A stretch of 64,000 bases of DNA from Phycisphaerales bacterium. GTDB taxonomy: Bacteria; Planctomycetota; Phycisphaerae; Phycisphaerales; UBA1924. Below the pieces are notes generated by a model. The model searched no databases. It was not told the origin of the DNA and worked only from the letters and a program-made list of their open reading frames with translations. A program made the translations under genes and the position numbers. The stretch spans positions 1 through 64,000 of the forward strand of contig JAIEOW010000158.1 in the NCBI GenBank assembly GCA_019750095.1, in the 5' to 3' direction. Each line of letters starts with the position of its first letter. The stretch's first letter is position 1. This document shows, one piece after another, positions 4,471 to 16,314 of the stretch.

Positions 4471-4547
4471 GAGCCAAGAATACGACTCGGCGGAGTCGTC
4501 CCCGACGCGTCGCATCTGCGAAGCTGAACACGAGGTCTGAAGGCAAG

Positions 4548-4634
4548 CGGTAGGGGAGGGATTCGAACCCTCGGTACCCTATCGGGTACGCCGGTTTTCA
4601 AGACCGGTACTTTCAACCACTCAGTCACCCTACC
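4548..4634 (-). tRNA. tRNA-Ser(UGA)
   Basis: On the minus strand a complete class II tRNA can be folded. The acceptor stem is GGTAGGG/CCCTACC (4628-4634 with 4549-4555) with discriminator G at 4548. The anticodon loop reads CTTGAAA, giving anticodon UGA. A long GC-rich variable arm follows, then a T-arm with GGTTCGAAT-type loop (plus strand ATTCGAACC). The long variable arm and discriminator G fit serine. CCA is not encoded. Confidence 0.93.
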
Positions 4635-5300: not shown

Positions 5301-7070
5301 TCAATACGTCGTCCATCCCGTCTTGCCGCGGCGCAGCAGGTTGATGATCATGTACCGCAGCGCATCGCACGCGTGATCAACGCCCTCGGTCTTCAGCGGG
5401 ATGAGCGTCTGCTTGTCGTGCTCGGGATAGCGGTAGCGGTGCATGCACTCGATCAGCCGAGTGCAGCGCTCGTGGATAAAGAGCTTGGGCGTGGGATCGG
5501 TGCCTCCGGCTCGCGGGTCAAAGGCCGGATCGAGCAGGTCGCGCACGGCGTTCACGCCAGAGTCGATCGTGCCGCCCTTGGCCCGCACGACAAAGCTCGC
5601 CTTGCGCAGCACCGTCGCGTTGGACTCGCCGGTCTGTTCATCCACGCTGTTGCCCGCGGGGTCGATGGCGACCCATGACAGCGCGGTGTCGGGTTCGACT
5701 CTCGCCAGCGGCTCGGCGTCCGCATTTAGCCAGCCCCGCAGCACGCCCACGTGATCGCTCAGCTTCAGCCCGGCCTTGCAGTGCTCGCGGATCACCACCA
5801 CGCGCTTGTCGCGCGTCACGCCGGCGAGCAGCACCACGCCCTCGGCACGAAAGCCGAAGTCCATCCCGGCGATTAGTTGCACGAAGGGCCCGAGCCGAGC
5901 GCCGTCGCCCTGCAGATCGTCATCCCCAACGACATGCCGCGCTGACTCGAACTCCGGATACACGCTGTCATCGCGTCGCGGACGCAGGCAGAGCATCTCG
6001 GCCTCCCAGGTGGCTCTGCCGACGCGCGACTTCATGCGGATCGCATCGTCGATGGTGATGTGTCCGAATGCGCCATCGCCGGTGCCTGCCGGCTTGCCGT
6101 CGCTGGAGAGCCGTTCCAGCTTGGCTCGCCCTGCACATTCCGGGGCGAGCGCGCATGTGGTGCACACGTGCTTGTTGCCGCAGTGCTCCAGCGCGTCCAG
6201 CACGCCCCAGCGGAAGATTGGCGGCGTGGGCAAGATCGCGTGGGCTTCTGTCCCATCCTGCGATGCAGCGTCCGTCGGGGCGACCTGCGCCGAACTGCTC
6301 GGCGTCTCTTGAGAGGTCGCTCGCGTCAGGAGATGCATCCCCGCGAGTTTCCACATCAATCCGAAAGGGCGATGCATCGTCGAGAGCGCATCGACGCTTC
6401 CTTTGATCTCATCTCCCCATGGTCCTTTGAGCTTGATCGATCGGGTCGTGAGCTGCACCGCCTCCCACAGTTCGGCATCAAACAGGTCCACCTCGTCGCA
6501 CCGCACTTTCTGGACGCGCGTGCCGCGGACGGAGGTCTGGCTTGCCGCCAGCACCTCGGCCGCCGCGCCGCCGCGACCCTCCACGCGGTCGCGCGTGATG
6601 ACAAAGTCGCAGATCGCGGCGACCCGCGGCATCTGCGCGAAGCGGTGCAGGTGTTCCTGCATCCGCCGACTCTGATCCAGCGAGCCTCCGAGCAGACGGA
6701 TCTGCACCCCTGGCTTGAAGATCAGCTCCAGAAGCGTCACAAGCGCGCCAAGAAACGTCTTGCCCCCGCCACGATTGGCCCACACCACGCAGTCTGGCGA
6801 CCGCCCCGCAAACCGACCTTGCGTGCCCTCAAAGAACGAGTGCACGACATAGTCAAACGGTGCAGCGTGCCCCGGCACCAGCGGCGCACGCAGCACGTGA
6901 ACGCCCAGATGTTCCACGATCCACACGTGCAGCGCGTCGGGCGACTGCGGCGGCGTGATCTCGTCGATGCTCGGATCAACACGCTCCGGCGGCGTGCTGT
7001 TGACTGGTGTGTGTGATGCTCCATCCGTGGTGCTCTTGCGCGATCGGCGCGTGCTGGATTTGCGTGCCAT
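5301..7070 (-). CDS. Phage terminase large-subunit-like ATPase/nuclease
   Basis: 589 residues, with a strong ribosome site GGAGGGGGAG before the ATG at 7070. The ATPase half has Walker A NRGGGKT (residues 99-105) and Walker B VRCDEVD (189-195). The second half has the RNase H-like nuclease pattern: MDFGF with Asp near 404 and DHACDALRY with Asp near 565 and 569. Between the two lies a four-Cys cluster, C-x5-C-x2-C-x5-C at residues 297, 303, 306 and 312, which suggests a bound metal or Fe-S centre. Terminase large subunits cut and pump phage DNA into procapsids, but no portal, capsid or tail gene is present here. It is the last gene of a three-gene minus-strand set that starts at 9316. Confidence 0.88.
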   Translation of the reverse strand: MARKSSTRRSRKSTTDGASHTPVNSTPPERVDPSIDEITPPQSPDALHVWIVEHLGVHVLRAPLVPGHAAPFDYVVHSFFEGTQGRFAGRSPDCVVWANRGGGKTFLGALVTLLELIFKPGVQIRLLGGSLDQSRRMQEHLHRFAQMPRVAAICDFVITRDRVEGRGGAAAEVLAASQTSVRGTRVQKVRCDEVDLFDAELWEAVQLTTRSIKLKGPWGDEIKGSVDALSTMHRPFGLMWKLAGMHLLTRATSQETPSSSAQVAPTDAASQDGTEAHAILPTPPIFRWGVLDALEHCGNKHVCTTCALAPECAGRAKLERLSSDGKPAGTGDGAFGHITIDDAIRMKSRVGRATWEAEMLCLRPRRDDSVYPEFESARHVVGDDDLQGDGARLGPFVQLIAGMDFGFRAEGVVLLAGVTRDKRVVVIREHCKAGLKLSDHVGVLRGWLNADAEPLARVEPDTALSWVAIDPAGNSVDEQTGESNATVLRKASFVVRAKGGTIDSGVNAVRDLLDPAFDPRAGGTDPTPKLFIHERCTRLIECMHRYRYPEHDKQTLIPLKTEGVDHACDALRYMIINLLRRGKTGWTTY

Positions 7071-7121
7071 CGGTCTCCCCCTCCTGTGGCGATGCGTGCG
7101 AGTGTGTGTTCAACCAGACGA

Positions 7122-8582
7122 TCAAGGCGTCGTGTACGCCCGCGGGCGAACGCTCAGTGAGCGAGCCGCGGTGCGGATCAGCGTGCGGACATCGGCCTCG
7201 GCGATCGCCCGAGTTGCGCGAGACGCACGAGCCCATCTCGCGAGCGCGGCAACCAGTGCGGGCGAGCGAGCGATACGTCTCGTGGCGCGGGCGATGTCCA
7301 CGAGCGACGTGCCCGACAGGCCGCGCTCGGCGAGCGCCGCGAGCAACTGCTGATCGCGCTGCGAGTGCGGGAGCACCCATTCCCGCATGCCCGCACGCAC
7401 AAAGAGCGGACACGCGGCCCCCATGGCAGCGACCGCTTCGGTCCGAGGGGTGAGCGGATCGCGCAAATACGCCGTGACAAGTTCGCCGGCGACACCCTGC
7501 CCACGATGCCTTGGATCGACGATCACACGCGAGATGCACCGCACTCCCGTGCCGCCGGGCGCGGCGTCGTTCAGTCGCTCCGCGGCGCGGCGCAGATCAT
7601 CCGGCGCATGCGAAGGGGGCGTCAGATCGGGCCAGGCAAGCGCTCGCCACGCACCGTTGAGCGTGGGCATGCTGACGGTCAGCACGGCGATGACCGGACC
7701 GCACTCCTGTCGGCGGGCCACGAGCACTCGAGCGATGGTTGCCGGACGACCGCCGCGATAGTGCATGGATGCGAGCGATGTGTAGTCGGCGAGCGAGCCC
7801 TGGGCGATGTGCAGCGCGCCGGGGCCGTCACTCGGCGGGCCTGTTGAGATGGTGCAGTGTCCACCAAGGTCGATCGCGAGGTGAACGTCGGCATGCAGCC
7901 AAGTCCGGACCTGATCGCGTGAGCTTGCGCACACGATCTGCCGCGGGCGCTCATTTGCGCCTGGAGACCGGACCCATCGTGCGAGCGTTGCGCAGACGCC
8001 CTGCGCGGTGGTGTCGTCCAGTCCGGTGCAGAACTCATCGATCGCCAGCAGCGCGGGTGTGCGCGGCGGGTCGGAGAGCGTGGTCGCGCTATGCATGGCG
8101 AGCGCAAGCTGCAGTCGAGCGTGCTCGCCTTCGGAGAGTTCGCAGACGCGTCGGGCGGCGATGCGAGCGTCGGCGAGCCCCGCCGCGCTGAGAGCACGCA
8201 GGGCGGTTTCTACCGGCGGCCCTTCAGGAGTGCCCGGCACAAAGGCGTTGATTACGCGCCGGTGTGCGAGCCTTTGGAGCGCCCGTTGATCGGTTTGGAT
8301 CACGCGCACGCCCTCGCGCTTCGCCCGATGGACCAACGCTTGCAACGCCGTGCTTTTGCCCCCGCCGCTCGGGCCGCTGATGAGCGCGATGCCGGTTGAT
8401 CGGGCCTGAAGCGTGGCGAGCAGTTCGGCGGCGGCGGTGCCCGCCCGCGCCATGCGCTCGGCGCGGTCGCTGATGACATCATCCGTGGTCAGGCCAAAGA
8501 CGCCCAGAGCGCTGAGCGCCTGGGGCGTCCAGTGGTCATTGCATGCCGCGACGGGCGCGCGGCGGCCTCGCTTGTGATCCAT
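7122..8582 (-). CDS. ABC-type ATPase fused to a GNAT domain (COG2401-like)
   Basis: About 486 residues from the ATG at 8582, which has GGGGAGG six bases upstream; an in-frame ATG at 8705, just past the preceding stop, is possible but lacks a ribosome site. The ATPase half carries Walker A GPSGGGKST (about 70-78), an ABC signature LSEGE (about 149-153), Walker B LLAIDE and a D-loop GLDD. The C-terminal half has a GNAT acetyl-CoA motif RGQGVA (about 360-365). This arrangement matches the family 'ABC-type ATPase fused to a predicted acetyltransferase', whose function is unknown. There is no membrane segment, so it is not a transporter. Mu Mom, a DNA-modifying enzyme, also has a GNAT fold, so nucleic-acid modification is a possibility (inference). 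It lies 51 bases upstream of the terminase gene. Confidence 0.82.
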   Translation of the reverse strand: MDHKRGRRAPVAACNDHWTPQALSALGVFGLTTDDVISDRAERMARAGTAAAELLATLQARSTGIALISGPSGGGKSTALQALVHRAKREGVRVIQTDQRALQRLAHRRVINAFVPGTPEGPPVETALRALSAAGLADARIAARRVCELSEGEHARLQLALAMHSATTLSDPPRTPALLAIDEFCTGLDDTTAQGVCATLARWVRSPGANERPRQIVCASSRDQVRTWLHADVHLAIDLGGHCTISTGPPSDGPGALHIAQGSLADYTSLASMHYRGGRPATIARVLVARRQECGPVIAVLTVSMPTLNGAWRALAWPDLTPPSHAPDDLRRAAERLNDAAPGGTGVRCISRVIVDPRHRGQGVAGELVTAYLRDPLTPRTEAVAAMGAACPLFVRAGMREWVLPHSQRDQQLLAALAERGLSGTSLVDIARATRRIARSPALVAALARWARASRATRAIAEADVRTLIRTAARSLSVRPRAYTTP

Positions 8583-8707
8583 CCCCATCCTCCCCTTCTG
8601 CTTCAACCCCAATCGAACCGGAAGATCGTCGTTGGTGGCAAGGCCTCCGGCTTGTGTGCTCACCTGCTGTGAAGCACCCAGGCCAGACGCCTGAGCCACG
8701 GTCATTG

Positions 8708-9316
8708 TCAGTCAGAGTTCTTTGATCGCTTCCATGTCTCTGAGCCGGAGTGCTGCGATGCGCGTTCACTCTTTGGTCCGGGTGTCCAGCGCCGGGTTGC
8801 AGGGCTGGCCTGCTTCGAGGCCTGCATCGCGCCGCGGGCCATCGCGAGCACATTCGCGCGGAGGGTGCGGACAAGGTGCTGGGTCAGCTTAAGCTCCTCG
8901 GCAACGGCGCGGACCGATCGTCCATGCAGCACGCAGAGTGTGGCGACACGAGCCAGACGCGGTTCAAAGGTGGCGACGTTGAGCGCGACAAAGGCGAACT
9001 CGGGTGAGAGGCAGCGCTTGGTCAGCCGAGCGACGCGGCGTTGAACCGAACGCGGCACGATCCCGAGCAAGGCGCTGATCTGCTTGGCGCTTTTGCCCTC
9101 ATCAAAGATTGATCGCAAAAGTGCGGCATCACCATCGGACAGAAATGCGGCGCGTTCGGCGAGTTGGCGGGCTCGGTCGCAGGAGGCCTCAAGGCGCTGA
9201 ATGCCGCGACTTGCTTCCGAGCCGTCGGAGCTCGCCGCAAACCGGCGAGACGGTCCTTGATTTTCGGAATATGATAGGGTATCTTGATGTGATTCCGCCC
9301 GGAATGCGTCGACCAT
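8708..9316 (-). CDS. Double helix-turn-helix protein
   Basis: 202 residues from the ATG at 9316, preceded by AGAAAGGA. Two HTH-like segments are visible, one around GKSAKQISALLGIVPRSVQR and a second around GRSVRAVAEELKLTQHLVRT, which resemble sigma-factor region 4 or phage regulator helices. The C-terminus is basic and low in complexity. It is the first gene of the set that continues into the ABC-GNAT and terminase genes and is divergent from the S24 repressor. It could be an activator of the set or the DNA-recognition partner of the terminase (small terminases also bind DNA through HTH folds); the sequence does not decide. Confidence 0.72.
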   Translation of the reverse strand: MVDAFRAESHQDTLSYSENQGPSRRFAASSDGSEASRGIQRLEASCDRARQLAERAAFLSDGDAALLRSIFDEGKSAKQISALLGIVPRSVQRRVARLTKRCLSPEFAFVALNVATFEPRLARVATLCVLHGRSVRAVAEELKLTQHLVRTLRANVLAMARGAMQASKQASPATRRWTPGPKSERASQHSGSETWKRSKNSD

Positions 9317-9356
9317 GCGAAGTCCTTTCTGGAGAACAATGAGCCCCCACGAGATA

Positions 9357-9427
9357 CGTTCACGCCTATGTGAACGCCCCGCGAGTATACCTTGTTCGGT
9401 ATATGGACGCAATGTGTTCGGTATAAT
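9357..9427. promoter_or_regulatory. Divergent promoter/operator region of the phage-like cassette
   Basis: On the minus strand TTGCGT (9407-9412) and TATACT (9384-9389) are 17 bases apart, a good promoter for the set starting at 9316. The -10 lies in an inverted repeat TATACC/GGTATA (9386-9391 with 9398-9403). The 11-mer TGTTCGGTATA occurs at 9393-9403 and again at 9415-9425, 22 bases on, the second copy overlapping a plus-strand TATAAT (9422-9427) for the repressor. A further inverted repeat CGTTCAC/GTGAACG spans 9357-9376. This resembles a phage repressor operator region. Confidence 0.6.
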
Positions 9428-9511
9428 TCTTCTGGCGCGTATGCGATTTTTGGGACGGGTGTGCCCAGGAATAGCCAAAACAGGGTATATGCATCGCGGG
9501 GAATACCCGCA

Positions 9512-10429
9512 ATGGAGTTTGCTGTGTGTTTGGACCCGAACAGATTCTCGGCCCCACCAGTCGATCAGCGCCTCGGGGCGCGAATTCGGTCATCGCGCAT
9601 TGAGCGCGGGATGAGTTTGCAGCAACTCGCCGACGTGGTCGGGTGCTCGCGATCGCATTTGTGCATGCTTGAAAGTGGAGACCGGGGCGCGGGTGGAGCG
9701 GTGGCGCGTGATCTGCTTGGGCGCATCGAGTCGGCACTTGGCCTTGAGCCGGATGCGCTGTGCGAGCTTGCGCGCTGGGCGGCGACCCCGAGTGAGGTGC
9801 GCGGGGAGGTGGAGCGCTTGCGGACGTCGCAGCGTGCCGCCGCGAATGAGCTGAGGGTCTTCATAGAGGATCTGCGCGGGCAGGTGGGCGGGCTGGATGC
9901 GGCGCATCGCAGCGGGAAGCTACAATCACTCATTGCGCGGCTGGATGAGAACGCGGCGGGTGCCGCACGGCGTGGGAACATCGTGGACGAGCGGCCTCGT
10001 GGCATGGATGGGGCGCTCTTGCCCAGGCAGGTTCCGCTGATCAACTCTGTGGCGGCGGGGTATCCGCGCGAGTTCACCGATCTTGGATATCCCGCGCGCA
10101 CCAGCGAGAGCTATGTGCGAACGCTGGATGTGGATGATCCCGATGCCTTCGCCGCCCGGGTGGTGGGAGACTCGATGCTCCCGGAGTATCGAGAGGGCGA
10201 TGTGGTGGTGTTCTCGCCGAATCGTCCCGTCAAGAACGGGATGGACTGCTTTGTTCGCCTGGAACGCGATCAGGAGACGACGTTCAAGCGGGTTGTGCTC
10301 GAGGGACCGGAGGGAAGCGAGCGGATCCGGCTGGTGGCGTTGAATCCGGCGTATGCCCAGCGCGTGCTGGAACGCGAGGATGTCGCGTTCATGTGCCCGG
10401 CGGTGAGTGTCACGCGGGCGGTGGGCTAG
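9512..10429 (+). CDS. XRE/S24 repressor, LexA/CI-type autoprotease
   Basis: 305 residues from the ATG at 9512. Residues about 20-75 form a Cro/CI-type HTH (MSLQQLADVVGCSRSHLCML). The C-terminal half is a peptidase S24 domain: cleavage-site motif VAAGYP with Ala-Gly near 182-183, catalytic Ser in GDSM near 221 and catalytic Lys in TFKR near 259. Such repressors self-cleave when RecA is activated by DNA damage. It is divergent from the HTH/ABC-GNAT/terminase set and is the natural candidate for its repressor. A small hairpin GCGGG/CCCGC (9496-9510) sits right before the ATG. Its stop shares the palindrome CTAG with the stop of the convergent histidine kinase. Confidence 0.87.
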   Translation: MEFAVCLDPNRFSAPPVDQRLGARIRSSRIERGMSLQQLADVVGCSRSHLCMLESGDRGAGGAVARDLLGRIESALGLEPDALCELARWAATPSEVRGEVERLRTSQRAAANELRVFIEDLRGQVGGLDAAHRSGKLQSLIARLDENAAGAARRGNIVDERPRGMDGALLPRQVPLINSVAAGYPREFTDLGYPARTSESYVRTLDVDDPDAFAARVVGDSMLPEYREGDVVVFSPNRPVKNGMDCFVRLERDQETTFKRVVLEGPEGSERIRLVALNPAYAQRVLEREDVAFMCPAVSVTRAVG

Positions 10430-13404
10430 CGGCCGGTTGTGGGCAAGTGGTTGGCTGTTGCCGGGCCGGCGGCGGAGGTTTCTGCATTCTGTCCGAGCCA
10501 CTTGGCGCAGGTTTCGATGAGCGAGGCGCGGTCGATGGGCTTGACGGAGTAGTCGTTGCAGCCGACGCTGAGGCAGCGGATGCGATCCTCGGGCATGGCG
10601 TGGGCGGTGAGGGCGATGATGGGGATGACTTTGCCGGCGGAGCGGATCCGTCTCGTCAGTTCATAGCCGTCCATGACGGGCATCTGGATGTCGGTGACGA
10701 TCAGGTCATAAGGCCTGTCGGCGCGCGTGGCGACCTCGATCATGTCAAGGGCGTTCTGGCCGTGGCCTGCGACATCGACCGTGGCGCCCGCGCGGCGGAG
10801 AAAGTGGGCGATGAGGCGTTGGTTGTCGATGCCGTCTTCAGCGAGGAGGATCCGGCCTCGGAGCTGGTGTTCGGAGCGGTCCTCTGGCCCCTGATCCGAT
10901 CCGACGATTGCATCGAGTCGATCGATCCACTGGGTGTTTGAGGTTGGAGTCAGGGGCAGGCGGATGCGGAAGGTGGATCCGACTCCGATGGTGGTGGTGA
11001 GGAGGGAGACCTCGCCCCCGATGAGCTCGCTGAGCCGCTTGCTGATGGTGAGCCCCAGGCCGGTGCCCCCGTGGCGTCTGGTGACCGTGGAATCGCTCTG
11101 CACGAAGGGGCTGAAGAGGCGGTCGGCGTCATCGGTTGGAATGCCCGGGCCGGTATCGATCACGTCGATGTTGATTGCCGATCGGCCTGGTTCGGCGGCG
11201 GAATCGACGCCCGCGCGGATGCGCACCGTGCCGGCCTCGGTGAACTTGACGGCATTGCCGACGACGTTCATGAGGATCTGCCGGACGCGGGTCGGATCGG
11301 AGAGAATTGTCGATGGGATGCTGGTGGCGAGTTCGACGATGAGGCAGACGCCCTTGCCCGTGGCCCGTGGCCGCAGGATGCTGGCGACTTCGTGGAGGAG
11401 TCCGACGAGCGAGGTCTCGACGCAATCGACCTGCATCATCTGGGCCTCGATCTTGGAGAGATCGAGGAGATCGTTGATGATCGTGAGCAGGTGCGAACCG
11501 GCGTTGCGCATGGTGTCCAGGGCGTGCAAGCGCTGGTCGGTTTCCAGCGTCGAGACGTCCTCGCGGAGAATGTCGGTGTAGCCGAGGATCGCCGTGAGCG
11601 GCGTGCGGATCTCGTGGCTCATGTTGGCGAGGAACTCGCTCTTGGCCTTGCTGGCGGCCTCGGCCTGGGCGCGGGCGATGTTCAGGGCCTGCGTGCTCTC
11701 GATCTCGGCGGTCACGTCGCTGGCGGTGCCGAAGAGGGCGATGATCCTGCCAGAGTCATCCAGGCGTGCGCGGCCCTCGCCGCGAACATACCGAGCGGCG
11801 GCCCGCGGACTGGAGGTCTTCATCACGAGTGAATAAGGCGTGCCATCGCGGATGGCGGCTTGCACCGCGGCATCGAGCCGGGCCGCGGATTCCGGGTCAT
11901 AATCCGACAGCACTCCGGGATAGTCCGGTGCCCCATCGGTCTCATTGCGTCCGAAGAGCACAAAGAGCTGCCGCGTCCAGGAGACGTTCCCCGTGGCCAG
12001 GTCATAGGACCAGCTTCCGATTCGGCCCACGGACTGCGCCTCTTGCAGCGACTCGGTGACAGACTGCAACTCGCATTGATAGTTCTTGTTCGCGGTCACG
12101 TCCACGTGCACGCCCATGGCACGGAGCGGCTCGCCGTGCGGGTCGCGCTCGGTGACGCGGCCGACGTCGAGGATCCAGGCGTACGAGCCGTCCTTGCGAC
12201 GCATGCGATACTCGGCACGAAACTCGGGCGTGAGACCCTTCATGTGCTGATCGAGCAGGTCCATGGCGTAAGCAAGGTCGCTCGGATGAACGACGCTCTT
12301 CCATTGCTCCAGCGATGGGCTCCATTCACCGGACTGATAGCCGAGCATGGTTTGTGCAACGTCGTTGAAGACGACGTGGCTGGTGACGATGTCCCAGTCC
12401 CAGGTACCCACATTGGCGGAGCGCACAGTGAGGTCCAGCCGCTCGGCCTGCTCGCGGATCGCGGCCCGCTGCAGCACCTGCGCCGTGATGTCGGTGATGA
12501 TCCCGCGGAGCATGACGGGCTTGCCATCGCTCATCTCGACCGTCACCACGTCCTCAACCCAGGCGACACCCCCGTCGGCGCGGAGCATGCGGTAGTGCAG
12601 CCGGTGGGTGCGGCCCGCTTTGGTCTCGTGAGCACATTGTTCAACAACGCGGGCGCGGTCTTCGGGATGGATCGTATTCGGCCAGAATCCCGGGGTGTAC
12701 CAGTCGCGCAGGTCGTAACCGAGCTTGGCCGCCTGGTCGGAGATGAACGTGAACCGATTGCTCGCCGGATCAAACTCCCAGACGATGACGTCGGCATCTT
12801 CGATGATGGTCCGAAGTCGGCGTTCGTTCTCGATGGTGCGCTGCTCGGCGAGCTTGCGATCGGTGACATCGACCGCCACCCCGCGCACGATCGTGCGACC
12901 GTCGATCCGCTCCGGTTCGGAGACATAGTCGCTGATCTGCACGACCGCGCCCGCGGCGTCGATCATACGATAGTTCAATCGATGGGCGCGACCGGCCTGA
13001 ATCTCGCCGAGGCATTGGCAGGTTGTGGCTTCGCGATCCTCCGGGTGCAGCAGTGTGTCCCAGAATCCTGGCTGCAGCCAGCGATCACGGGGATAGCCCA
13101 GCCGCTGATCCTCGAATGAAACGTATCGGAAGCGATCTTCCTCGACGCAGAACTCCCAGGCGAAGACGCCGGTCCCTTCGACGATGCTCTGCAGCCGCGA
13201 GTTGGACTCGCTCAACGCGTTCTGAGTACGGAGGTGCTCGCGGCCCGAGCGTCGAAGCCGGCGATACATGACCATGCAAACCACGGCGGCGATCGCGGCG
13301 GACGTGATGCCAACAACACCAAGAATGTCTGCCGAAGTCAGTCCGAGCCGCGTCGGACGCGCTAGCGTGATCGGCCGCTGTATGGTGCAGACGAACCCGG
13401 ACAT
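10426..13404 (-). CDS. Hybrid sensor histidine kinase with four PAS domains
   Basis: 992 residues; the ATG at 13404 follows GGAG. A single membrane segment near residues 22-46 is followed by four PAS/PAC units (about 60-185, 190-315, 325-445 and 460-580), each with the PAC-type HPED/HPSD and YRM.R.DG signatures except the last, which is degenerate. Then come a HisKA domain with phospho-acceptor His in SHEIRTP, an HATPase domain with DTGPGI and GTGLGL, and a C-terminal receiver with phospho-Asp in VTDIQMPVMDG. The protein should autophosphorylate and pass phosphate to its own receiver; no Hpt or response-regulator gene is adjacent. The signal sensed is unknown. Confidence 0.93.
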   Translation of the reverse strand: MSGFVCTIQRPITLARPTRLGLTSADILGVVGITSAAIAAVVCMVMYRRLRRSGREHLRTQNALSESNSRLQSIVEGTGVFAWEFCVEEDRFRYVSFEDQRLGYPRDRWLQPGFWDTLLHPEDREATTCQCLGEIQAGRAHRLNYRMIDAAGAVVQISDYVSEPERIDGRTIVRGVAVDVTDRKLAEQRTIENERRLRTIIEDADVIVWEFDPASNRFTFISDQAAKLGYDLRDWYTPGFWPNTIHPEDRARVVEQCAHETKAGRTHRLHYRMLRADGGVAWVEDVVTVEMSDGKPVMLRGIITDITAQVLQRAAIREQAERLDLTVRSANVGTWDWDIVTSHVVFNDVAQTMLGYQSGEWSPSLEQWKSVVHPSDLAYAMDLLDQHMKGLTPEFRAEYRMRRKDGSYAWILDVGRVTERDPHGEPLRAMGVHVDVTANKNYQCELQSVTESLQEAQSVGRIGSWSYDLATGNVSWTRQLFVLFGRNETDGAPDYPGVLSDYDPESAARLDAAVQAAIRDGTPYSLVMKTSSPRAAARYVRGEGRARLDDSGRIIALFGTASDVTAEIESTQALNIARAQAEAASKAKSEFLANMSHEIRTPLTAILGYTDILREDVSTLETDQRLHALDTMRNAGSHLLTIINDLLDLSKIEAQMMQVDCVETSLVGLLHEVASILRPRATGKGVCLIVELATSIPSTILSDPTRVRQILMNVVGNAVKFTEAGTVRIRAGVDSAAEPGRSAINIDVIDTGPGIPTDDADRLFSPFVQSDSTVTRRHGGTGLGLTISKRLSELIGGEVSLLTTTIGVGSTFRIRLPLTPTSNTQWIDRLDAIVGSDQGPEDRSEHQLRGRILLAEDGIDNQRLIAHFLRRAGATVDVAGHGQNALDMIEVATRADRPYDLIVTDIQMPVMDGYELTRRIRSAGKVIPIIALTAHAMPEDRIRCLSVGCNDYSVKPIDRASLIETCAKWLGQNAETSAAGPATANHLPTTGR

Positions 13405-15585: not shown

Positions 15586-16314
15586 TTGGGTGAGCAACCA
15601 CACAACTCGGCGTCGGGTGAACCAGTCGTGCCGATCCCGGACCCGTCCAATGTGACACGGATCCTCGAGGCGGCGAGCGCGGGGGATAAAGATGCCTCGG
15701 CGAAGCTGTTGCCCCTGGTGTATGACGAGCTTCGGCGGATGGCCGCGGGGCTGATGTCGCGTGAGAAGGCGGGGCTGACGCTCCAGCCGACGGCGCTGGT
15801 GCACGAGGCGTATCTGCGGCTGCTGGGCAATCAGGCGACGAGTTGGCAGAATCGGGCGCACTTCTTTGGGGCCGCGGCGCTGGCGATGCGGCGGATCCTG
15901 ATCGACCGGGCGCGGCACGTGAAGGCGACGCGTCCGGCGCAGATCGCGAGCTTTGACGAGCAGGGCACCACGGGTGTGCTTGACGACGGGTCGGGGATGA
16001 TCGGTGGCGGGGCAGGAGGAGCGGGGGGGCGGGCGAGCGATTCGGCGGTTGCACCGACGGATGCGGACGATCTCATCTATCTCGACGAGGCGATGCGCGA
16101 GTTGCATGCGCGGGATGATCGCCAGCACGACGTGGTGATGTTGCGGTACTTTGCGGGATTGACGATCGAGCAGACGGCCGAGGCGCTGGGGGTGTCGATC
16201 AGCACGGTGAAGAACGAGTGGATGTACGCGCGGGCGTGGCTGATGCACCAGATCGACAAGCGTCGCGTAGCCGACGGGCTGCCGCCGAGATCTTCCGGCG
16301 GAAAGAAGGGCTGA
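15586..16314 (+). CDS. ECF-type RNA polymerase sigma factor (Sigma70_ECF, PF07638 type)
   Basis: About 242 residues. Region 2 is seen in LLPLVYDELRRMAAG and LVHEAYLRLL, with an Asn/Trp-rich stretch before FFGAAALAMRRILIDRARH; region 4 has VVMLRYFAGLTIEQTAEALG and ISTVKNEW. A Gly-rich linker joins them. AGGAGG at 15576-15581 lies just before a TTG at 15586; the in-frame ATG at 15550 would place that ribosome site inside the gene, so I prefer TTG although the spacing is short. The kinase gene follows 7 bases after the stop. In planctomycetes such sigma/kinase pairs are thought to act together, with phosphorylation replacing an anti-sigma factor (known for related ECF groups, inferred here). Confidence 0.9.
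   Translation: MGEQPHNSASGEPVVPIPDPSNVTRILEAASAGDKDASAKLLPLVYDELRRMAAGLMSREKAGLTLQPTALVHEAYLRLLGNQATSWQNRAHFFGAAALAMRRILIDRARHVKATRPAQIASFDEQGTTGVLDDGSGMIGGGAGGAGGRASDSAVAPTDADDLIYLDEAMRELHARDDRQHDVVMLRYFAGLTIEQTAEALGVSISTVKNEWMYARAWLMHQIDKRRVADGLPPRSSGGKKG

Follow-up and report, generated by a model that had tools for sequence, protein, structure and literature searches.

The DNA analysed here, hereafter the window, is a stretch of 64,000 nucleotides from a Phycisphaerales bacterium (assembly GCA_019750095.1, contig JAIEOW010000158.1, positions 1 to 64,000; contig C197 of genome G000 in our numbering), and it carries at 5301-10429 a cassette of four genes coding for a terminase large subunit (TerL), an ABC ATPase-GNAT fusion (ABC-GNAT), a double-HTH protein and a divergent S24 repressor. 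These four genes had been named in a first-pass annotation made from the letters alone, and all of them were confirmed. From left to right, TerL, ABC-GNAT and double-HTH lie on the minus strand and are followed by S24 on the plus strand (Table 1). The gap between ABC-GNAT and TerL is 51 bases, and the three minus-strand genes therefore look like a single operon that ends with TerL. An A/G-rich ribosome site precedes each of the three, a strong one in the case of TerL (AGGAGGGGGAG), and the motifs are complete, as the earlier description of intact genes with good ribosome sites had it. By gene order, the cassette is a short form of a longer array in which S24 is divergent from HTH-ABC-GNAT-ParB-TerS-TerL. 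The assembly measures 4.19 Mb in 202 contigs and is 93% complete, and absences from it are not absolute.

Table 1. Features of the cassette, numbered from the first nucleotide of the window.
Feature	Position	Strand	Basis or remark
TerL (terminase large subunit, 589 aa)	5301..7070	-	phrog_2 1.6e-13; ATPase and RNase H-like nuclease, Cys cluster between
ABC ATPase-GNAT fusion, 488 aa	7122..8588	-	ABC about 7842-8519, GNAT about 7122-7850
Double-HTH protein, 202 aa, sigma-region-4-like, first gene of the operon	8708..9316	-	Pfam/NCBIfam
S24 (LexA/CI-like) repressor, HTH_3 and Peptidase_S24	9512..10429	+	PF00717 1.9e-18, phrog_4 8.6e-29; start uncertain
Operator-like copy 1, TATACCGAACA	9393..9403	-	one of two exact places in the assembly
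Operator-like copy 2, TATACCGAACA	9415..9425	-	22 bp from copy 1

TerL was recognised through its family profile (A2), which matched solved TerLs (5oea at 2.4e-13), the Pfam Terminase_6N score being 0.077 and under the cut-off; two cyanovirin constructs at about 1e-5 in the same match list were taken as chance. The window protein contains NRGGGKT, RCDE, MDFG, DPAG, DHACDALRY and CTTCALAPEC, and loose patterns for Walker A, Walker B, DFG, DP[A/S]G and DH..DALR were present in 41 of 41 TerLs, the window's included. Judged by these motifs, it is a TerL of the tailed-phage type, with a Walker A/B ATPase and an RNase H-like nuclease bearing three Asp motifs.

In the ABC-GNAT open reading frame (7122-8705), Pfam returned ABC_tran (1.1e-5) and Acetyltransf_1 (2.1e-4), and translation most likely starts at 8588, behind the A/G-rich site. 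The motifs in the window are GPSGGGKST, LSEGE, AIDEF and CISRVIVDPRHRGQGVA; the ABC patterns were retained in 32-33 of 33 sequences and the GNAT pattern in 29 of 33, and phrog_886 matches the GNAT half. By domain content and context the protein is of the type that we take to be COG2401, in which an ABC ATPase is fused with or neighbours a GNAT in a phage packaging setting. The predicted GNAT model (mean pLDDT 91.4) had as its best Foldseek match in the PDB the tRNA(Met) cytidine acetyltransferase 2zpa (E 6.7e-5, TM 0.39 on query length), followed by small-molecule acetyltransferases. Aligned to Mu Mom (8bv8), it gave Z 12.1 over 158 residues (the longest among 50 rows, rmsd 5.3), generic GNATs gave 11.3-12.7, and in the comparison with viral models Mom S4TTR0 came at rank 4. 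Since generic GNATs tie in Z with Mu Mom, an assignment to Mom by fold was not made; the modelled fold would allow a nucleic-acid substrate and proves none. According to the accessible part of PMC7824862, the same authors had earlier predicted that an ABC-coupled GNAT acyl-modifies a DNA base, and the ABC-GNAT pair itself is thus not new.

The HTH frame (8708-9478) matched Sigma70_r4_2 at 6e-6 in Pfam, and its start is most likely 9316, again behind an A/G-rich site. In a profile search it matched sigma factors as well as other proteins with an HTH; the predicted model (mean pLDDT 84.3), whose PDB matches were mostly sigma factors with none at E <= 0.001, weakly resembles sigma factors. When the cassette was compared with PADLOC-DB 2023, TerL had no match, ABC-GNAT matched via its ATPase region only (best mad8 6.8e-9 and mad3 9.6e-9), and HTH and S24 matched through their HTH domains only; judged by these profiles, it is not a known anti-phage defence system.

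The S24 frame opens at 9392, right beside the operator-like repeat, and the true start is for this reason probably later (ATG at 9512 or 9611). The window protein carries AAGY, GDSM and TFKR, and across 19 S24 sequences the cleavage site and Lys were conserved in 18 and Ser in all 19; with its Ala-Gly site, catalytic Ser and Lys and HTH, it is by motif a self-cleaving repressor of the LexA/CI kind. A search for exact copies through genome G000 found TATACCGAACA at exactly two places, both between S24 and HTH, and the reversed control at none. The repeat is a putative operator, and since it occurs at this switch only, the S24 repressor may control the cassette alone. A looser pattern, TACCNWWCA, chosen by eye from the same S24-HTH regions in which it was counted, gave 17 copies in 19 such regions and was present in 13 of them; the remaining parts of the loci would lead one to expect 0.09 copies, and 300 shuffles averaged 0.61 (maximum 3). 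The six regions without it comprise L051 and L054, which belong to the same taxonomic order, and four from other families.

Relatives of TerL were counted at E <= 1e-5 over 198 genomes of the class Phycisphaerae, many of which are drafts that leave single gene losses uncertain. TerL was found in 103 of the 198, including 11 of 11 in the window's family (f1), and the GNAT profile in 126; both were present in 94, TerL only in 9, GNAT only in 32 and neither in 63 (Fisher odds ratio 20.6, p 5e-18, related genomes not being independent). Across the phylum, GNAT was found in 65 of 392 genomes, 36 of these outside the class. A one-off insertion is ruled out by the frequencies of TerL and GNAT in the class. 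Neighbourhoods of up to 20 kb were taken for 40 of the 103 TerL genomes, and ABC and GNAT lay at most 9 kb from TerL in 32 of them, fused in one frame in 5 of these 32 loci, as in the window, and as separate genes in the others. Of the 40, 18 had a divergent S24, 14 a full ParB (E below 1e-60), 5 others a weak ParB and 20 a TerS-like gene. Pfam supported ParB in one locus (PF02195 5.8e-7) and gave just 0.061 in a second; the name TerS rests on position and sequence character, Pfam having given no match. A scan of named genomes yielded 264 relatives, complete genomes of strains ZRK32 and ZRK34 being among the matches, and among the best 80 (flanks up to 6 kb; 79 planctomycete titles and one Vicinamibacteraceae) 23 had the exact seven-gene order, 47 had TerL and 76 ParB. 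The block thus recurs across families and genera, mostly with no recognised capsid genes, which was the pattern that the first-pass annotation had named as the sign of an undescribed system. Among the papers listed by literature searches there was none on a capsid-less chromosomal terminase cassette in planctomycetes; the terminase link may have been described before.

Eight loci had no nearby ABC-GNAT (L048, L061, L062, L063, L066, L068, L069 and L071), and gene-by-gene reading of L062, L063, L066, L068 and L071 recognised no phage-like neighbour. The lone TerL of the f19 loci L062 and L063 adjoins dnaA, named by eye from its start; the GNAT of f19 genomes lies 30-34 kb off on the same contig in G035, G042 and G049 and on another contig in G028. 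L048 consists of S24, HTH, TerS and TerL, and its genome (G066) has no GNAT match. In L057 an IS110-like transposase, recognised by eye, stands between ABC-GNAT and TerL. Beyond the class, ABC-GNAT often adjoins terminases of other kinds: a PF03354-type terminase in L170 and L173 (the two tested of eight f48 loci), and a divergent terminase in all five f46 loci taken (L178-L181 and L185). L182 (f61) and L183 (f35) hold S24, ABC-GNAT and ParB together with a weak match for HTH; L183 additionally has an HTH protein and a frame with a TerL nuclease domain. Families f7 and f18 keep ABC-GNAT without a cassette-type TerL, and in f18 locus L209 a small holin-like membrane protein (9265-9516; by eye, no Pfam match) follows ABC-GNAT.

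For the comparison of descent, RpoB was taken from 38 of 41 cassette genomes, leaving out G066 and G164 (unsearched) and G058 (fragment). The TerL and RpoB trees of these 38 had 22 of 35 splits in common, against a mean of 0.30 and a maximum of 4 in 200 label shuffles. In the 31-32 genomes that carry them next to TerL, GNAT, ABC and HTH shared 16 of 29, 13 of 29 and 10 of 28 splits with RpoB, respectively, and Mantel r against RpoB was 0.78 for TerL, 0.65 for GNAT, 0.48 for ABC and 0.52 for HTH (each p 0.001). Among 46 gene comparisons of dN/dS between related species, 9 were saturated and 37 measurable (0.04-0.36), with 32 of the 37 below 0.25, which is the purifying selection that the first-pass annotation had named as support. 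Some loci of f1, f2 and f5 (at most 7 loci, 3 families) also have flanking genes in common, and the chromosomal place is therefore partly old. The cassette is endogenised and inherited vertically with its host. The earlier argument against decay was borne out by vertical descent, dN/dS well below 1 across genera and intact motifs.

An origin in phage packaging is supported by real phages with the same gene order. Cyrano, SSU5, nickie and RHph_N1_10 have ParB-(ParB)-ABC-(small)-GNAT. After GNAT, nickie and RHph_N1_10 continue with a protein that is DNA-binding or unnamed, then with TerL, the portal and the major capsid; SSU5 (a linear record, read from both ends) continues with a DNA-binding protein and TerL, behind which stand two unnamed genes and a putative capsid gene. 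Like the longer array, the SSU5, nickie and RHph packaging operons run ParB-ABC-GNAT-(small)-DNA-binding/unnamed-TerL on one strand, and these phages annotate GNAT as an ABC subunit (COG2401 'MK0520' ABC/acyltransferase, MK0520 being taken from the annotation). They differ in that portal, scaffold and capsid come next, whereas the cassette has no recognised portal or capsid next and is controlled by its S24/HTH pair. An f35 ABC-GNAT matched 229 phage records at E <= 0.01, 11 of them over at least 80% of its length, with 32-36% identity in the best rows, and the SSU5 TerL is 26% identical to an f5 protein. In a tblastn search of INPHARED, the TerL and ABC-GNAT of the window itself had no match at 1e-5; relatives from other families did match. 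In IMG/VR, 51 loci had GNAT, and the same stretch contained ABC in 48 and a TerL match, mostly weak, in 33; ABC-GNAT therefore travels with a terminase in viruses too.

Taken together, the cassette is very probably a domesticated phage DNA-packaging module, captured long ago and inherited vertically. The phage packaging logic read into the locus by the first-pass annotation thus gains support from phage gene order as to origin, and packaging, defence and another role are candidates for its function.

Portal (PF04860, phrog_145) and capsid (PF05065, phrog_212) families were searched over the 198 genomes; the search was not exhaustive, since the capsid of family f9 (PF13252) was missed by phrog_212. 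Within the window, ten further proteins were scanned with PHROGs and gave no portal, capsid, protease, tail or lysis match, as the earlier description had it for these gene types; the remaining window was covered by the list of open reading frames. As given in the accessible part of PMC9662315, a gene transfer agent (GTA) has caudoviricete-like particle genes, is endogenised and vertically inherited, and encapsidates and delivers random host DNA. Like RcGTA, BaGTA and BhGTA, the cassette is phage-derived, endogenised and passed on vertically, with a TerL under purifying selection. It differs from GTAs in that most carriers have no portal or capsid found, that it adds ABC-GNAT, ParB and its own S24 switch, and that it is known here from genes alone. 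Because none of the four portal and capsid families searched turned up in G000, the cassette of the window is not counted among the GTAs.

Family f8 of the same class, like GTAs, has separately placed capsid genes. Portal and capsid were present in 22 f8 genomes, in 20 of them on different contigs or 11-47 kb apart, and side by side in G073 and G097. L191 has an S78 protease after its portal, and L195 has a PF05065 capsid with a GT2-type gene nearby. L402 and L405 carry a divergent ParB-ABC-GNAT-TerS-like-TerL array; L404 has ABC-GNAT-TerS-like with TerL about 2.5 kb further and a head-completion-like gene (PF05521 5.4e-5, just under the cut-off), and L401 is an ordinary-looking prophage cluster. 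TerL (phrog_2) was found in 19 of 22 f8 genomes tested, two of them weakly, the broad phrog_2 also matching in 11 of 14 control genomes. Part of the particle gene set of a GTA is therefore present in f8, at separate places, and judged by gene content the scattered portal, protease and capsid genes together with the array could be an undescribed dispersed planctomycete GTA. In f9 the array runs straight into a portal (phrog_145 in G005 and G015; 7.9e-32 in L216), followed in L216 by a PF13252 capsid (6.4e-16), with a host-like gene at its end about 10 kb past TerL by eye; a prophage and a GTA are both possible readings. No tail genes were recognised by eye in L216 and L219 (genus g33), and the stretch is short for a prophage. 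In these two loci a 330-aa gene after the portal is glycosyltransferase-like by eye with no Pfam match, and small membrane proteins follow the capsid before a host HypE-like gene (by eye), among them a small holin-like one in L216 (1017-1229; by eye, no Pfam match).

The leading reading of its function, plausible though somewhat short of an even call, is that the cassette packages DNA with particle parts that are supplied in trans or have escaped recognition. We infer induction, DNA modification and packaging in the following form. The S24 repressor would hold the paired operator; upon DNA damage it would cut itself, as its conserved cleavage site, Ser and Lys suggest, and its loss would turn the operon on. 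ABC-GNAT would then put its predicted acyl mark on DNA bases, and TerL would cut the DNA and pump it into a portal and a capsid encoded elsewhere, in the manner of a GTA. By analogy, f8 and the phages speak for packaging.

Several observations weigh against such packaging. All four portal and capsid families were absent from G000, tails and other capsid families lying beyond this search, and, in the same non-exhaustive search, from 67 of the 103 TerL genomes. Portal was found in 21, capsid in 27 and both in 12 of the 103, and the families are no commoner with TerL (21 and 27 of 103) than without it (29 and 31 of 95), so these capsid families do not track the cassette. Eight genomes with TerL and GNAT in 1-2 contigs had no capsid and one portal (G167, below the cut-off). 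Exact copies of the repeat elsewhere in G000 were zero, so no dispersed capsid genes share it. ABC-GNAT persists without a cassette-type TerL in 32 genomes, and of 11 f1 genomes 8 lack TerS or show it weakly. Profiles built narrowly for portal and capsid found no match in 80 cellular loci, but none in 51 viral loci either, and so carry little weight.

As to TerS and ParB in f1, the ten loci read contained no full ParB (4 weak remnants) and TerS in 2. A TerS profile, run over the whole f1 genomes, recovered TerS clearly and in adjacent position in G090 and G096 and partially in G113; G003, G013, G032, G046 and G119 gave no match, and G000, G185 and G189 gave weak matches elsewhere, in frames of 255-610 aa. 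TerL is still under selection in f1 despite this loss. With no full ParB and TerS mostly gone, sequence-specific packaging would be weakened, and any packaging in f1 is probably not sequence-specific; the loss of TerS would leave room for random packaging or for use without packaging. The accessible part of PMC7947584 reports that RcGTA TerS binds DNA non-specifically, and that the planctomycete Zavarzinella formosa has a predicted intact prophage whose TerL is near that of RcGTA, which is not the same thing as the cassette.

A tentative and rather unlikely reading holds that the cassette is a class-wide, vertically inherited cellular machine, capsid-less in most lineages, in which ABC-GNAT would mark DNA and TerL would cut and move it under its own SOS-type switch, the putative f8 GTA being a surviving or re-armed form.

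DNA modification-restriction defence, with ABC-GNAT marking self DNA, TerL cutting unmarked DNA and S24 restraining the pair, is the main rival; it is unlikely and has substantial points on its side. GNAT without TerL occurs in 32 of 126 GNAT genomes and TerL without GNAT in 9 of 103 TerL genomes (some maybe assembly gaps), and a modification-restriction pair would be expected to leave GNAT alone often and TerL alone seldom. TerL is kept where TerS is lost, and in L362 TerL, ABC-GNAT, a small protein and an N6-methylase-like protein stand in a row. The predicted base acylation by ABC-coupled GNATs (PMC7824862, accessible part) fits a marking role, as do the alignments to Mu Mom and to viral Mom S4TTR0, where generic GNATs score the same; the cassette GNAT shares with Mu Mom the GNAT fold and the phage context and differs in having an ABC ATPase as partner, in that generic GNATs reach the same Z, and in that its activity is a prediction. 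The mad8 and mad3 matches of the ABC half point the same way; they are confined to the ATPase region, and TerL has none. The cassette is inherited vertically in near single copy, unlike most defence systems, and in phages the block heads the packaging operon, f8 genomes holding it together with capsid genes.

That the cassette repackages host DNA into the capsids of infecting or resident phages is distinctly improbable. Intact TerL motifs in genomes that mostly have no recognised portal or capsid would suit such hijacking, as would the 12 of 103 TerL genomes with both portal and capsid of some kind. A TerL must, however, fit the portal of its helper, and no searched portal family is common to the carriers; vertical descent and the absence of TerS, the usual redirecting part, from much of f1 also argue against it. 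The satellite option of the first-pass annotation found no positive evidence, no integrase being seen by eye in the neighbourhoods read, where integrases were not profile-searched. Slightly more doubtful still is a DNA-damage-induced system of DNA processing or cell fate in which TerL would be a chromosomal nuclease and translocase. The self-cleavage motifs of S24, intact in 18-19 of 19, the position of TerL beside dnaA in f19 and the dispensability of TerS in f1 fit this; the motor motifs are, however, conserved as well as the nuclease motifs, we know of no TerL that serves as a chromosomal processing enzyme, and to our knowledge pumping by TerL occurs solely with a portal. A decaying prophage remnant, to which the missing portal, capsid, tail and lysis genes would point, is scarcely credible given class-wide vertical descent, purifying selection and intact motifs, and we reject it on sequence grounds.

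Terminases are taken as markers of phages or GTAs. A class-wide, selected terminase with no recognisable capsid genes would mean either that planctomycetes have a hidden gene-transfer system or that cells put the viral packaging motor to a new use, and the cassette would give a genetic handle on the role of ABC-GNAT beside the terminase in phages.

Some further features were recorded. In the window, an ECF-sigma-like protein (15628-16314) matched a TerS family of PHROGs at 4.7e-4 through its HTH, and at the cassette's left edge a tRNA-Ser (tga; 4547-4634) lies beside a MarR-type gene. The row of genes in L362 spans 8872-11785 of a viral contig, perhaps archaeal as a guess; its N6-methylase-like protein matched PF02384 at 4.5e-8, and its small protein has a PD-(D/E)xK-like stretch by eye with no family match. 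IMG/VR contigs L031, L033, L088 and others contain, besides the main TerL, shorter TerL-profile matches with ParB genes between.

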